Below are positions 6,863 to 13,571 of a stretch of DNA of 20,033 nucleotides, piece after piece. The notes below the pieces were generated by a model, which saw nothing but the letters and a program-made list of their open reading frames with translations, was not told the DNA's origin and searched no databases. The number at the start of each line of letters is the position of its first letter. Positions within the stretch are counted from its first letter, which is position 1. The stretch comes from a virus. A program made the position numbers and the translations under genes. The stretch lies in IMG/VR virus record IMGVR_UViG_3300031578_000443, positions 1 to 20,033 of that record, one strand, 5' to 3'.

Positions 6863-9655
6863 ATGGGAGTCAAATATTTATATGGCATAGACGTAACTGG
6901 GCAGAGTACCTTCTCAACTAATGTTGGGATAGGTACTTTAAGTCCTAATGCAAATCTTGATATAGTTGGAGGTGTAGTTATACTAGGTCAAAATAAAATT
7001 GACGGCAGTAGTGACAACTTAAAAATTATGTCTGATTTTGCTAATATCAGCGGAAGTTCTACTATTGAATTTTCTGTAGATAATAGCGAAAAGATGCGTA
7101 TTACAAACGCAGGCAACGTAGGAATAGGGACGACTAGTCCAGGAGCTAAATTTCAAGTAGATGGTTCAAATTCTAATGGGTTAATTCAAGCTTATGTAAC
7201 TTCCGGTGGTGGAAATGCTCTACGCCTAAATACTAATTTTGGAGGCGGGAATTATATCGACTTAAACCCATATGTAACAGGAGTAAGTAACGGGGGTTTT
7301 GAAATATTACAAAATGGAACTCAAAGATTAGTAATATCCTCTTCCGGCAACGTCGGCATTGGTACGACTAGTCCATCTGAAAAGCTACACGTAGACGGTA
7401 ATGCAAGAGTAACAGGTGCATATTACGACACCTCTAATTCACCAGGTACAGTTAATCAGCTATTGTCTTCGACAGTAACTGGTACTACTTGGATTAACCC
7501 ATCGGCTATTGTAGCGGAAGCGGCTACATTAGTTGTAATCGCGTGTAAGAACACTTCTGGAGCAGCTATAGCACAAGGGACTCCTGTATATCAAACAGGA
7601 ACAGTGGGCGCGACAGCGACTATTGAAATCGCTCCTGCAGATGCATTAATATCAGAAAATAAACTTCCAGCTATTGGTTTACTGCAAACAGCACTAAACA
7701 ACAACGGATTTGGTTTTGTAGTTATAACTGGAGCACTTACAAATTTTACAACATCTCCTATTGATGGAGTTGTACCTACCACAGGGGATAAAGTATTCGT
7801 AAAATCAGGGGGAGGACTAACATTAACTAAACCAACAGGTGAGGGTAATGGTATTCAAAATATGGGGCTTGTTGGTAAAGTGTCTACTGGAAGCGCTGGG
7901 TCTATTACCGTGTCGTCTATTATGCGTACCAACGACGTACCCAACCTGCCCGAGGGTAGAATATGGGTAGGTGATGGAAACACCTTAGTATCTGATACAG
8001 TTTATATAGATGAGCCAAATAACAGGTTTGGTATTGGGACGACTAGTCCTAGCAGACAACTAGAGGTCTCTAACACAGGGAATGCAATAATAAGAATAGC
8101 AGGAGATAGCGACAATGATGTAGGAGAAACAGGAGATGCTGTGCTTGAAATGACTACTGATGCAGGCGGTCACGGATGGTCAATAAGAAGCGCTAACATA
8201 GGTGGAGGAACAGGCGATTTTAAAGTAAACACCTTTATAAGTAGTGTTGAATCAACAAAATTACTAATTGACAGGGACGGCAACGTAGGGATAGGAACGA
8301 CTGCGCCTATAGGCAAGCTACACGTAAATACTTTTAATACAAGTAATAACGCTTTAACGATACAGGCTTCGAATTGGACCGCTAGAACTTATGGGATTGG
8401 TATTGATTCTTCAAGTAGCTTATCGTTTTATGATAACTTCTCTTCTTTAGCAAGACTTATTATCACATCATCAGGCAACGTAGGTATTGGAACGACTAGT
8501 CCAGCTGAAAAGTTATCTATTGAGGGTTCTGGAAGTCAATCTTTATCTATATACAGTACAGATACTGGTATTTCCGGTACGCCAAAAACATTTATTAAAT
8601 TATACGGAGAGAGTGCAGCAGCACTACAGAGATTACAAGGACAAATATCAGTTGCTCCTGGAGTAAATACCAATTCAGGTGATATGATTCTTAGCACAGC
8701 AAATACTGCTGCTGCTATAACAGAAAGGATGCGTATTGATGGGGCGGGCAACGTAGGTATTGGAACTACTAGTCCTAGTACTTTACTTCATATTGAAGGT
8801 TCTTCTGCAGGGTATTTACAAACCATAAAAAATACGACAGCAGGGGGAGATTATTTACAAATGTTAGCTGAAACTGGGGATGCTGTATTTCAATTTGAAT
8901 CAGGAGGTACTGGTGGTGAAGCAACTCTAAATATGTATAGAGATGGTACTCAATATGTAAAAATATCAGCAGACGCAGGGGTAGATAATTATTTCAACAA
9001 TGGTGCAAACGTAGGTATAGGAACTACTAGTCCCGCTTATAAGTTGCACATAGACGACGACACTGCTTATGGTGGTGTTCTTATTGAAGGAGATAATGCC
9101 CCCGGATTAAGCATAAGAGACAATAGCGGAACTTCAATATCTAAAATTTATGTACAAAGTACTGCCGGTTCTCAAGGTAATCTTAGAATATCCTCAGACG
9201 ATAATAACACAGCAACTACTCCTACTATAGAGTTTATAATAGGGGGTTCGCACAAAATGCGTGTTTTAGATAATGGCAACGTAGGAATAGGAACAACATC
9301 TCCTTCAGCTAAGTTGGATGTAGAGGGTGATGTATCAATTAAGAATGTCAACTTATCTAATCAGGAGAATCTAGATGTAGACACAGGGACTGAGGTGATA
9401 GCGATAGCTCCTATAGCATTATATACAGCGGCATTCTTTGACTTTGTAGTTAAGAATGGAGCGAACGTTCGTTCAGGTACGGTGTACGCCTGTCACGATG
9501 GGACATCAGTAGAGTACACAGAGACATCTACAGCTGACTTAGGTAATACATCAGCGGTAGTATTTACAGTAGACATATCAGCAGGTAATATGAGATTACT
9601 TGCAACAACGACCACAGACAACTGGTCAATAAAAACTTTAACTAGAACAATATGA
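6863..9655 (+). CDS. Large tail fibre with GNVGIGTTSP repeats (fibre 1)
   Basis: A 930-residue protein made of modules of about 65-95 residues, each typically ending MRI...GNVGIGTTSP.AKL. Nine copies are seen, plus one insertion domain without the repeat (residues about 220-380: CKNTSGAAIAQGTPVYQTG ... RTNDVPNLPEG), a fibre domain I recall from many phages. The C-terminal domain (ALYTAAFFDFVVKNGANVRSG ... NWSIKTLTRTI) is another recurrent phage structural ending. Likely a trimeric beta-fibre for receptor binding. It overlaps the next gene by ATGA. Two modules are shared with the product of 10032. The S74 auto-chaperone domain often found at fibre ends is absent. Confidence 0.85.
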   Translation: MGVKYLYGIDVTGQSTFSTNVGIGTLSPNANLDIVGGVVILGQNKIDGSSDNLKIMSDFANISGSSTIEFSVDNSEKMRITNAGNVGIGTTSPGAKFQVDGSNSNGLIQAYVTSGGGNALRLNTNFGGGNYIDLNPYVTGVSNGGFEILQNGTQRLVISSSGNVGIGTTSPSEKLHVDGNARVTGAYYDTSNSPGTVNQLLSSTVTGTTWINPSAIVAEAATLVVIACKNTSGAAIAQGTPVYQTGTVGATATIEIAPADALISENKLPAIGLLQTALNNNGFGFVVITGALTNFTTSPIDGVVPTTGDKVFVKSGGGLTLTKPTGEGNGIQNMGLVGKVSTGSAGSITVSSIMRTNDVPNLPEGRIWVGDGNTLVSDTVYIDEPNNRFGIGTTSPSRQLEVSNTGNAIIRIAGDSDNDVGETGDAVLEMTTDAGGHGWSIRSANIGGGTGDFKVNTFISSVESTKLLIDRDGNVGIGTTAPIGKLHVNTFNTSNNALTIQASNWTARTYGIGIDSSSSLSFYDNFSSLARLIITSSGNVGIGTTSPAEKLSIEGSGSQSLSIYSTDTGISGTPKTFIKLYGESAAALQRLQGQISVAPGVNTNSGDMILSTANTAAAITERMRIDGAGNVGIGTTSPSTLLHIEGSSAGYLQTIKNTTAGGDYLQMLAETGDAVFQFESGGTGGEATLNMYRDGTQYVKISADAGVDNYFNNGANVGIGTTSPAYKLHIDDDTAYGGVLIEGDNAPGLSIRDNSGTSISKIYVQSTAGSQGNLRISSDDNNTATTPTIEFIIGGSHKMRVLDNGNVGIGTTSPSAKLDVEGDVSIKNVNLSNQENLDVDTGTEVIAIAPIALYTAAFFDFVVKNGANVRSGTVYACHDGTSVEYTETSTADLGNTSAVVFTVDISAGNMRLLATTTTDNWSIKTLTRTI
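7112..9303 (+). repeat. GNVGIGTTSP coding repeats, fibre 1
   Basis: Motif copies (about 29 bases each) start at 7112, 7346, 8021 (variant NRFGIG), 8279 (TTAP), 8474, 8747, 9005 and 9275; a degenerate first copy (VGIGTLSP) begins near 6921. Spacings are all multiples of three (195-273, with one 675). Most share the same DNA words GGCAACGTAGG and ACGACTAGTCC although flanking sequence differs. Confidence 0.85.
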
Positions 9656-9993
9656 CAACATTTAATTGGACAATCTCAGCAGTAGAGAGAAAAGTAAGCG
9701 AAGACGGATTATCAAACGTAATTCAAGTAGCACATTGGCGGTACAGAGGTACAGATGAAAACGGTGTAACGGCAGAGCTTTATGGAGCACAGTCGTTAGC
9801 TGAACCAAATCCAGAGGATTTTACTCCTTGGGATGAGGTGACAGCAGAAGACGTAGAAGGATGGTTGGTTAATATCTTCAGTGTGACTGTAGATGGAGAG
9901 CCTTCCGAGTTAGAGAAAATGGAGGCGAATATTGATGTTCAAATTGAACTGATAATCAATCCTGTGACTATAACTGGTCCTTTAGTAGCGTAA
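9652..9993 (+). CDS. Conserved small phage protein (fibre-block accessory)
   Basis: A 113-residue protein coupled by ATGA to the first large fibre. It begins TTFNWTISAVERKVSEDGLSN, then VIQVAHWRYRGTDENG and ends with an acidic helix and PVTITGPLVA. I recall this pattern (W.i.a.....DGL.DVI...HWRY.....G) as a short uncharacterised phage family found beside tail or neck genes (possibly DUF7936; not verified). No membrane span or signal. It may be a small structural or assembly factor for the fibres; that is inference from position only. Confidence 0.72.
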   Translation: MTTFNWTISAVERKVSEDGLSNVIQVAHWRYRGTDENGVTAELYGAQSLAEPNPEDFTPWDEVTAEDVEGWLVNIFSVTVDGEPSELEKMEANIDVQIELIINPVTITGPLVA

Positions 9994-10031
9994 CAAACAA
10001 TAATAATTAGCTGTAATCTGGAAAGTGAAAG

Positions 10032-13000
10032 ATGAGTAATGAATTCAAAATTAAGAAGGGTCTTGTAGTCGAAGGAGATGCGAGAGTAACAGGAGCGATA
10101 TTTGACTCAACGAACGCACCGGGTACGAGTGGTCAGGTTCTAACATCAACTGTAACAGGTACAGACTGGAAGAGCTTAGCAGAGATATCAGGTGTAGACG
10201 GCACAGGTACAGCTAATTATTTATCTAAGTGGGCGGATGCTGACACTATAACCAACAGCATCGTATACGACAACGGAACAAACGTCGGCATTGGGACGAC
10301 TAGTCCGAGTGCTAAGCTTGAAGTTAATGGCGCTTTGTTTGTTGGTAATCACACCGGGACAGTGACACCTACGGACGGGATATGGATTGAAGCACCTACT
10401 GGAGTTGAAACACAAATTCAAATGTACACTTTTGGCGGCAGTATTTTTAGCATAAAAGGTAATAACACTAAAGCAAACATAGGTTGGAGTAGTGGTCAAG
10501 ATAGATTTGTAAATTTTGTAAATGCAGGAACTGGAGACATAAGTGTTGGTATAGGAACGACTAGTCCAGCTTCTAAACTGCATATAAAAACGTCTGTTGA
10601 TAATAGTGTTTCTCAAGGATTAGTTATTGAGAGAAGCGTAAATAGTGACAGGGGTTATATTAATTATAATGGAGGTGGATTTCAGTTTAGGTCAACAGTA
10701 GGAGACCCTATTGTATTTGGTGAAACAGACGCTGAACATATGCGAATCCTGCCTGACGGCAACGTAGGCATAGGAACGACTAGTCCTGATGCTAAGCTAG
10801 AGGTAGTAGGAACTACAGGAATTGCTCTAGCTCAATCTGCAGGAGCAAAAACAGTTGGTTATGTTACCACATTACAATCTTTTTACTCAATAAATTCAGG
10901 TTTTCTAGCTTTTAGTGGTGATGGAGGTGCTGGAAAAGCTATTGGTGGAGGAGCTTATGGAGCTGATACTATCCTTTTTGCTAATAATACGGAAAGGATA
11001 AGAATATTAAATAACGGCAACGTAGGTATTGGGACGACTAGTCCACAAGCTAAGTTACACGTTTCTTCTACTGGTGAATCTGTAATAAGAATTCAAGATT
11101 TAGATGCAACAAATCAATTTATGGATTTAGGGCATAATGGAGGAACTAGCTATTTCTTATCAACGAATAATACATCAAATGGTAATTTTACTTGGTATTT
11201 ATATAATGGCACTTCTTTTAGTACACCAATGTATATTGCTTCTACAGGCAACGTAGGCATAGGAACGACTAGTCCTGAAAATAAATTACACGTTCAGCAA
11301 AGTGACGTATTTACAGGAATACATACCACAGCCGGAGTTAGAGTAAAGTCAGACGGAGCTTCTGCTATTAATAACTACCATGGAACTATAGCATTATCAA
11401 GAGGGACAGGAGGTGTAGCAATTTCTGCTGTTCAGGAAGATACAGACAGTGACGTGATGGGAATGGCATTCTTTACACATCCATCAGCTACTGGAGGTGA
11501 TGCTGCTGTAGAGAAAATGAGATTAGACCAAAACGGTAATCTAGGCATAGGGACGACTTCTCCTGATTTTAGACTTCATACCAATCTTAATTTAAGTGGC
11601 ACACCGTTATCTTATTTAAACGGGACAGCAAATACATTTAACGGTACAGCAAATCTAGGTGTAACACATAATAGTACAGCTGTAGGTACAGGTACAGCCG
11701 CTGGTGTTTATTTAGCTAATAATGCTAATAACGACGGAGCGCCCTCTCCTATAATAGCTTTCTCAGCATTGTCTGCTTCTGGAAGTTTTAACCACACTTA
11801 TGCTGCAATTTATGGTATAAAAACAGCTGGTGGAGCAGATACTAATTGGGTTAAAGGTGACCTTACTTTTGCAACAGGTAACACAACTGGACCAGAAAGA
11901 AGGATGACAATTCTTGCTAATGGCAACGTCGGCATCGGGACTACTAGTCCTGCTTATAAATTTCAAGTAAAATCTGACGATGTTTTAGGCGGTATTTATC
12001 TTGAAGGTGATAATGCTCCTGCTTTTAGGATTAGAGACACTTCTGATAATGGAGATTCTTTAATTTATACAAATAATGGTGGTAGATTAATTTTATCTGC
12101 CGATGATTCTAATGTTACTACAGGTTCTTCTTTAGAATTTAAAGTAGATGGCTCAGAAGCTATGCGTATCGACTCAAGTGGTAACGTCGGTATAGGGACT
12201 ACTTCTCCTGGAGCTAAGTTAGATATAGTCGGTACTGGAAATGCAGTTCAAATAAGAAGGTCAAACGGATATGCTTCTATAAAAGCACATTCTGATAATG
12301 GAGGAAACCTTATACTGGACTCAGATACATCAACAGGAGCTGTTTTCTTAAACAACTATGTAAACAGACCTGTGTATATTGCTACAGGAGGTGGCAACGT
12401 CGGTATTGGGACGACCAATATGTATGCTAGGCTGAATGTTAAAGCAACATCACATAATAATGGTATATCTGTAAACAGAGCAGCAGATAATACAGCAGCA
12501 CTTTATATAGGTAATGATGGCGGTGGAATTCCAATCATAGCATCAAATAACTCTGACCTGATTTTTGGTAGAGACTTTTCAGGTACGTTTACCGAGCGTA
12601 TGCGAATGACCAATGACGGCAACTTCGGCATTGGGACGAGTAGTCCTGGCACAAAGCTTCAGGTTGAAGGTACAATCAGAGCTACAGGCACATCAGGGAA
12701 TGTGGATGTTGACCCTTTATACGGTGCGTTTAGATTCTACAACGGCTCTACGTTCTACGGAGGGTTCTACAACGATGCTGTGCTTAGTTCAGGTAATGCA
12801 GTTGACTTAGTGTCATACGTAGCCACAGGAGACTACTACATCGGTTCAGCTACAAGAGGAAAGGTTGTTAAGGTAGAGCAGGGTGGTAATGTTGGTATAG
12901 GCACTACGTCACCAACAGAGAAACTAGATGTGAATGGTGTGGTTAATGCTACGTCATTCTCAGCAGGTGGAACAGCAGGATTTACAGGAACAGTTAATTT

Positions 13001-13067
13001 TCCAAGCAACTCTCCAGGTTCTCGGATGCTTGATTTTCAAGGTGGATTATTAGTAAGTGTTTCATAA
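10032..13067 (+). CDS. Large tail fibre with GNVGIGTTSP repeats (fibre 2)
   Basis: A 1011-residue repeat fibre. It opens with FKIKKGLVVEGDARVTGAIF, followed by the PGTSGQVL...TGTDW module, then eleven GNVGIGTTSP-type copies with modules of 71-129 residues, the most frequent repeat distance being 258 bases. Modules often carry AMRI or ERMRM before the repeat, as in fibre 1. The C-terminus (TGTVNFPSNSPGSRMLDFQGGLLVSVS) is short and lacks the S74 domain. It probably forms or extends a tail fibre and may act with, or as an alternative to, fibre 1. A 38-base gap without a promoter-like element precedes it, so it is likely co-transcribed. Confidence 0.85.
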   Translation: MSNEFKIKKGLVVEGDARVTGAIFDSTNAPGTSGQVLTSTVTGTDWKSLAEISGVDGTGTANYLSKWADADTITNSIVYDNGTNVGIGTTSPSAKLEVNGALFVGNHTGTVTPTDGIWIEAPTGVETQIQMYTFGGSIFSIKGNNTKANIGWSSGQDRFVNFVNAGTGDISVGIGTTSPASKLHIKTSVDNSVSQGLVIERSVNSDRGYINYNGGGFQFRSTVGDPIVFGETDAEHMRILPDGNVGIGTTSPDAKLEVVGTTGIALAQSAGAKTVGYVTTLQSFYSINSGFLAFSGDGGAGKAIGGGAYGADTILFANNTERIRILNNGNVGIGTTSPQAKLHVSSTGESVIRIQDLDATNQFMDLGHNGGTSYFLSTNNTSNGNFTWYLYNGTSFSTPMYIASTGNVGIGTTSPENKLHVQQSDVFTGIHTTAGVRVKSDGASAINNYHGTIALSRGTGGVAISAVQEDTDSDVMGMAFFTHPSATGGDAAVEKMRLDQNGNLGIGTTSPDFRLHTNLNLSGTPLSYLNGTANTFNGTANLGVTHNSTAVGTGTAAGVYLANNANNDGAPSPIIAFSALSASGSFNHTYAAIYGIKTAGGADTNWVKGDLTFATGNTTGPERRMTILANGNVGIGTTSPAYKFQVKSDDVLGGIYLEGDNAPAFRIRDTSDNGDSLIYTNNGGRLILSADDSNVTTGSSLEFKVDGSEAMRIDSSGNVGIGTTSPGAKLDIVGTGNAVQIRRSNGYASIKAHSDNGGNLILDSDTSTGAVFLNNYVNRPVYIATGGGNVGIGTTNMYARLNVKATSHNNGISVNRAADNTAALYIGNDGGGIPIIASNNSDLIFGRDFSGTFTERMRMTNDGNFGIGTSSPGTKLQVEGTIRATGTSGNVDVDPLYGAFRFYNGSTFYGGFYNDAVLSSGNAVDLVSYVATGDYYIGSATRGKVVKVEQGGNVGIGTTSPTEKLDVNGVVNATSFSAGGTAGFTGTVNFPSNSPGSRMLDFQGGLLVSVS
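10278..12913 (+). repeat. GNVGIGTTSP coding repeats, fibre 2
   Basis: Copies start at 10278, 10539 (ISVGIG variant), 10758, 11016, 11247, 11535, 11922, 12180, 12393 (ends TTNM), 12618 (NFGIGTSSP) and 12885. Spacings are 213-387 bases, all multiples of three; 258 recurs. Copies 10758 and 11247 are identical over the whole motif at DNA level. Confidence 0.85.
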
Positions 13068-13340: not shown

Positions 13341-13571
13341 ATGGCACAAATAAGCACATACGCAACTATATCAACACCTACCATTGACGATAAGTTAATC
13401 GGAACAGATGTTGAGAATGAGAATCTTACAAGAAACTTTTCAATAAGTAGTATTCTTGCATTGGTTGGCGTAGGTCTTTCTGAGTATGCTTCAAATGCAG
13501 CAGCAGAGGCTGCAGGATTAGCTATAGGAGACTTATACCACAACGCAGGAGTTGTATGTGTGGTCTACTAG
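13341..13571 (+). CDS. Miniature fibre-like adaptor protein
   Basis: A 76-residue protein with two parts. Residues 2-36 (AQISTYATI ... DKLIGTD ... TRNFSISSI) match the adaptor at the start of the 4731 product. Residues 45-76 (LSEYASNAAAEAAGLAIGD, ending GVVCVVY) resemble the C-terminal 'NAAA...AGL..G.LY...GVV.IVY' ending I recall from Bacteroidota phage proteins. So it is an attachment segment with almost no fibre shaft. It may be a complete small tail component, or a fibre gene reduced by deletion. Confidence 0.7.
   Translation: MAQISTYATISTPTIDDKLIGTDVENENLTRNFSISSILALVGVGLSEYASNAAAEAAGLAIGDLYHNAGVVCVVY

Follow-up and report, generated by a model that had tools for sequence, protein, structure and literature searches.

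The 30-base word that encodes the peptide GNVGIGTTSP, present in about 20 copies over two fibre genes of a phage, appears to behave as a built-in joint for the shuffling of fibre modules, because it is alike within each genome at silent bases and marks the sites at which modules are exchanged, gained or lost. Homologous recombination through this word, which would encode a capping loop between modules, together with concerted evolution of its copies, is the probable explanation. At the level of sequence, this rests on module-bounded homology, on one exact in-frame gain or loss of a module that left a chimeric motif, and on a genome-specific homogenisation that is limited to the motif. These observations support the proposal, made in an earlier note on this DNA, of recurring recombination that swaps modules in frame. 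The modules are fibre segments; that they are also receptor modules, as they were called there, we infer.

The window, which is the whole stretch of 20,033 nucleotides analysed here, is a 20-kb IMG/VR virus fragment whose terminase shows 77% identity to that of Podoviridae sp. MW202828 and 44% identity to those of Flavobacterium elemo phages, making a phage of Bacteroidota its likely source. Two modular fibre proteins are encoded on the + strand: F1 (930 aa, 6863-9655), which matches PHROG tail fiber families 9942 (1e-43) and 18345 and, by phmmer, the Bdellovibrio MAT fibre bd2133 (8ond, E 2.1e-9), and F2 (1011 aa, 10032-13067), which matches the same families (5e-51 for 9942) and 8ond (E 1.2e-10). 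They are separated by a small gene, also on the + strand (9652-9993), that is assigned to DUF7936 / phrog_7802 (Pfam PF25590, 5.5e-26). When the DNA from F1 to F2 was compared with a phage collection, the sole match was the DUF7936 gene of Flavobacterium phages. At positions 11-717, the C-terminal part of GroEL adjoins a GroES-like gene, an arrangement annotated likewise in the relative MW202828.

Counted as xx[VLF]GIGT[TS]xx, the motif occurs 19 times in the window (8 copies in F1 and 11 in F2), always in frame and always on the + strand. The copies of F1 lie at 7112-7141 (GNVGIGTTSP), 7346-7375 (the left edge of a module shared with other phages), 8021-8050 (NRFGIGTTSP, the right edge of the same module), 8279-8308 (GNVGIGTTAP), 8474-8503 (30/30 bases identical to one motif of the fibre locus L213), 8747-8776, 9005-9034 (ANVGIGTTSP) and 9275-9304. 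Those of F2 lie at 10278-10307 (TNVGIGTTSP), 10539-10568 (ISVGIGTTSP), 10758-10787, 11016-11045, 11247-11276 (30/30 identical to the copy at 10758), 11535-11564 (GNLGIGTTSP), 11922-11951, 12180-12209, 12393-12422 (GNVGIGTTNM), 12618-12647 (GNFGIGTSSP) and 12885-12914, the last of which reads GGTAATGTTGG... and is without the common words. A divergent copy, TNVGIGTLSP (6917-6946, + strand), stands outside the 19 counted. ACTAGT occurs 14 times in the window, with 12 of these occurrences inside the motif, as had been noted earlier. GGCAACGT[AC]GG is found 11 times, every time inside the motif, ACGACTAGTCC 9 times and AC[GT]ACTAGTCC 12 times. The statement in the earlier note that most copies share common words is slightly generous for the longer word.

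Comparison of the motif codons with codon usage in the remainder of F1 and F2 showed that codon choice in the motif differs from that of its surroundings. Gly1 is encoded by GGC in 12/15 copies (background 9%, p=6e-11), Asn2 by AAC in 15/17 (31%, p=2e-6), Thr7 by ACG in 13/19 (8%, p=6e-11), Thr8 by ACT in 15/18 (31%, p=9e-6) and Ser9 by AGT in 13/17 (20%, p=6e-7), and the commonest codons of V3, G4, I5 and P10 in the window copies are near background. Pairwise codon identity among the copies is 0.505 against 0.375 expected (sd 0.023), and the highest of 5000 recodings reached 0.486, confirming that the copies are alike at the DNA level beyond codon usage. Within the window alone, exact runs of at least 20 nt between copies are limited to 3 pairs, which is within reach of recoding. 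GC3 is 0.46 at codons 1-5 compared with 0.13-0.32 in the flanks.

To obtain a wider set, the peptide was turned into a DNA pattern of full degeneracy, and relatives of the terminase, DUF7936 and F1 module 2 were added; this gave 170 non-redundant motif-bearing fibre ORFs with 437 strict copies on about 166 phage contigs. Similar fibre segments are found in phage records including Synechococcus, Pelagibacter, Roseobacter, Parabacteroides and Thermus phages. Across the 170 ORFs, background-corrected codon bias spans codons 1-9 but does not extend further, with no bias (KL 0.001 bits) at P10, a residue that nearly all copies have, and almost none (KL 0.04 bits) at L14, which 85% of copies have. 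The shared preferences include GGC (222 observed, 74 expected), ACG at codon 7 (158, 43 expected) and AGT at codon 9 (194, 72 expected).

The homogeneity of the word was assessed between copies within the same ORF whose flanks are unrelated (at most 30% aa identity; 124 ORFs). Codon identity between such copies is in excess by +0.17 to +0.39 at codons 1-9 and by +0.10 at codon 10, and the excess in these 124 ORFs is about zero at the conserved neighbours L14, V16, G18, I-3, E-7 and R-4, which therefore excludes young duplicates and gene-wide effects as its source. A scenario of recent duplication, in which the copies would be paralogues of recent origin, with modules that selection changed quickly before the silent sites of the motif had lost their likeness, can draw on the fact that some modules are indeed paralogous. 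F1 module 7 (9035-9274, + strand) and F2 module 7 (11952-12179, + strand) are homologous over their whole length (42% aa identity), and their neighbours are dissimilar. However, the scenario is very improbable, given that residues conserved a few codons beyond the motif are without any silent-site homogeneity and that module bodies are unrelated, yet their motifs can be identical over as many as 30 nt.

Over the motif, codon identity at the same position is 0.56-0.63 compared with cross-position values of 0.29 (G1-G4), 0.28 (G1-G6) and 0.32 (T7-T8); for glycines 1, 4 and 6 it is 0.56-0.58 at the same position and 0.28-0.29 between position 1 and the others, with a background of 0.35. What is conserved is therefore a DNA word, not a series of optimal codons. 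This word is spelled per genome: GGAAACGTAGGAATT... in L164, GGTAATGTAGGTATAGGTACTACATCACCA in L102 and GGCAACGTAGG...ACGACTAGTCC in the window. The excess identity is +0.230+-0.018 within an ORF, +0.214+-0.047 with the other fibre ORF on the same contig, +0.083+-0.010 between contigs with a module in common and -0.005+-0.007 between contigs without a common module. Word similarity thus tracks gene flow, as is characteristic of concerted evolution. An unlikely alternative account is position-specific selection on codons or nucleotides, in which translation, RNA structure or another DNA signal would preserve the bases and recombination would be only incidental. It would accommodate the recurrence of the same preferences at fixed positions in unrelated phages and, more weakly, in chromosomes, as well as a slight excess of RNA folding. 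However, that words are alike within genomes but different between them, with no net similarity between genomes that lack a common module, is not what such selection would lead to, and the use of different codons by glycines 1, 4 and 6 of one gene removes optimality at the amino-acid level. Genome-specific homogeneity also persists after correction for the shared preference, since a global position preference fitted on the other ORFs predicts an identity of 0.396 against 0.626 observed. An RNA hairpin under selection was rejected, the folding effect (mean z -0.31 over 310 copies) being too small.

A weaker global codon preference (GGC, AAC, GTC, ACG, AGT) is nevertheless shared by unlinked genomes, including bacterial and archaeal contigs, and concerted evolution alone is no explanation for it. 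One tentative idea, more doubtful than recombination itself, is that the word acts as a shared recombination address, in which matching spellings recombine more and carry modules into more genomes, so that second-order selection for fibre evolvability across phages of many host phyla would keep the silent sites. GC-biased conversion was rejected as the source of the GC-rich codons; the rise in GC3 is equal in single-copy (+0.15) and multi-copy ORFs (+0.11 to +0.21) and is not followed by codons 8-10, for which reason the appeal of the earlier note to GC-richness is weak. Its proposal of ACTAGT as the core of the repeat also fails, as this hexamer is lineage-specific and other phages homogenise words without it, such as those of L164 (GGAAACGTAGGAATTGGAACAACTTC) and L102 (GGTAATGTAGGTATAGGTACTACATCACCA).

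Reshuffling of modules among relatives, which the earlier note predicted, was found in several fibre loci. F1 module 2 with its left motif (7345-8022, + strand) is 84% identical in DNA to L209-L211, the match beginning at the first base of the motif at 7346 and ending in the motif at 8021, and L212 shares 7457-8020 at 90%. No further DNA match of at least 150 bp was found between L211 or L212 and the window. Of the ends of Blast matches between fibre genes, 28/72 fall inside the motif of both partners at an identity of at least 80% (7.3 expected) and 20/44 at 85% or more (4.5 expected); the enrichment was also computed with a stricter motif definition. When breaks are counted more widely, from -45 to +75 nt relative to the motif, the enrichment is modest (32/44 compared with 19.8), and the break signal resides in the motif itself. 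Local alignments can be pulled to conserved motifs, yet in the 26 junctions inspected the homology of the inner flank reaches the motif, beyond which the outer flank is unrelated. The enrichment could in part reflect the survival of joints that preserve the fold and not a hot spot of crossover.

The plainest case comes from the sister phages L221 and L222, whose flanks are 90-96% identical and which have modules in common (at 99, 96 and 92%) in different places. A segment of L222 between the motifs at 13356 and 14001 (645 nt, in frame) is missing from L221, where one motif is left. This remaining motif is chimeric, since its codon 1 (GGT) agrees with the left parent and its codons 3, 5, 7 and 10 (GTC, ATT, ACG, CCT) agree with the right parent, placing the crossover within the first nine bases if no later mutation has occurred. 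Both loci lie on one contig (G001, 129537 bases) with two terminases and two Erf genes, which appears to consist of the genomes of two sister phages in head-to-tail order. The join is possibly a product of the assembler; both fibre loci have open reading frames. The same pattern is seen between L214 and L215, with flanks of 93-95% identity.

On the protein side, F1 and F2 have significant sequence similarity to MAT fibres of solved structure (8ond) over the loop region, where the loops align, and in the MAT study (PMC10769870) the equivalent loops cap the edges of a trimeric beta-helix. By analogy with these solved homologues, the loop of F1 and F2 would probably be located at the module edges. 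A crossover within a capping loop would leave both adjoining modules whole, which explains the survival of such recombinants. An AlphaFold model of F1 module 2 (15 sequences) was too poor (mean pLDDT 54) and was discarded. The likeness to MAT fibres includes the loop of bd2133, which has VGINTAAPLQKL and VGIGATAPTAKL at the place of VGIGTTSPxxKL in the window, and would include a modular, chimeric trimeric architecture. However, MATs belong to the surface of a predator and carry a signal peptide as well as a conserved N-terminal domain, and the portion of that study considered here does not describe conservation of the loop at the DNA level or recombination through it (PMC10769870). F1 and F2 are not classed as members of the MAT family proper, whose signal peptide and N-terminal domain are unexpected in a phage virion protein.

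The proposed mechanism takes GNVGIGTTSP to be the loop that caps and separates the beta-helical modules of a trimeric fibre. The same peptide would be needed at every module boundary, so that the genes contain many direct repeats of 30 bp. These repeats would pair inside one gene, from one fibre gene to the other or between co-infecting phages and then recombine, most likely through single-strand annealing by a Rad52-type protein that the phage encodes (Sak or Erf). A crossover at the word would move, delete or add entire modules in frame, and exchanges limited to the word would convert its silent sites, which would lead to concerted evolution of the copies in a genome, with the surrounding modules remaining different; conversion beyond crossover alone may thus be what homogenises the word. 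In multi-copy ORFs, the copies share 118 exact runs of at least 20 nt (6.4 expected) and 61 of at least 23 nt (1.4 expected); the shortest segments published for pairing are 23-27 bp with Red-beta and 31-34 bp with RecA (PMC3945230). The window, being a genome fragment, has no recombinase identified in it. In MW202828, Sak adjoins an ExoVIII-like exonuclease; Sak is also present in three relatives of 60-64 kb (G016-G018), including the motif-bearing L014, and Erf in G001 (two copies), G002 and G006. RecT was found in 0/12 related records, and in some motif-bearing contigs, possibly incomplete, neither Sak, Erf nor RecT was seen. That annealing proteins perform the exchanges, and that module swapping alters host range, are plausible parts of this model.

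The least probable of the explanations weighed, with only a slight chance, is that the repeat is the target of programmed site-specific recombination (as by a shufflon or an invertase) or of a diversity-generating retroelement. Many short DNA repeats in a receptor-type gene, and the palindrome ACTAGT in the window copies, would be in keeping with it. However, every copy runs in the same direction, and the word is variable and does not require ACTAGT. Neither the dedicated recombinase nor the inverted or invariant core sites of a shufflon or DNA invertase were found, and domains of tyrosine integrase, serine recombinase and reverse transcriptase (RVT_1 0/15, for diversity-generating retroelements) were not found in 15 related, possibly incomplete, records.

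Recombination of this general kind has a precedent. The T-even gp38 adhesin carries glycine-rich motifs between hypervariable segments (Tetart 1998, J Mol Biol 282:543, reference 66 of PMC12529663), and recombination between the conserved motifs that flank the variable segments is reported to swap these segments. In the same way, the motif of the window lies at segment boundaries and homology between relatives breaks within it. However, gp38 is another protein, and the motif described here has up to about 20 copies per gene, over two fibre genes, in phages of many hosts, with silent-site concerted evolution measured and annealing-type recombinases as candidates. Relaxed homologous recombination by Rad52-like phage recombinases (Sak, Erf and Red-beta type proteins), for which short or diverged homology suffices for mosaicism, concerns general genome mosaicism and not a repeated coding joint inside one gene (PMC3945230). 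Recombination of fibre adhesins through conserved motifs is already known from T-even gp38; the multi-copy capping-loop joint, the concerted evolution of silent sites limited to a motif, and its breadth are new as far as the open literature shows, in which no paper was found for the peptide string GNVGIGT or for concerted evolution in tail fibres. Fibres of this class are very widespread in phages (and bacteria), and the word would give their mosaicism a concrete molecular joint; motif-limited silent-site homogeneity offers a simple signature for locating recombination joints in metagenomic data. Such a joint also makes testable the old question of how phages continue to reshuffle receptor parts without breakage of the fold.

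Several minor observations accompany these results. The arginine at motif position -4 (of an upstream M-R-I) prefers CGT across phages (72 compared with 28 expected in about 170 ORFs) and is not homogenised within ORFs, the opposite of the motif pattern. The motif is also found with the same favoured codons, more weakly, in contigs filed under CPR bacteria, Omnitrophota, Bdellovibrio relatives, Bacteroidota and archaea (L296-L375), some of which may be prophage or misbinned virus. A second segment is common to F1 and F2 (ARVTGAxxDSxxxPGTxxQxLxSTVTGTxW, at 7388-7490 and 10074-10170); homology breaks also fall within it (L213/L214, L212/window), and it may be another joint. Upstream of the terminase (L009-L088), the motif is present in only 6/35 of the terminase relatives examined, with different large ORFs in most of the others, and fibre types are therefore also replaced wholesale.
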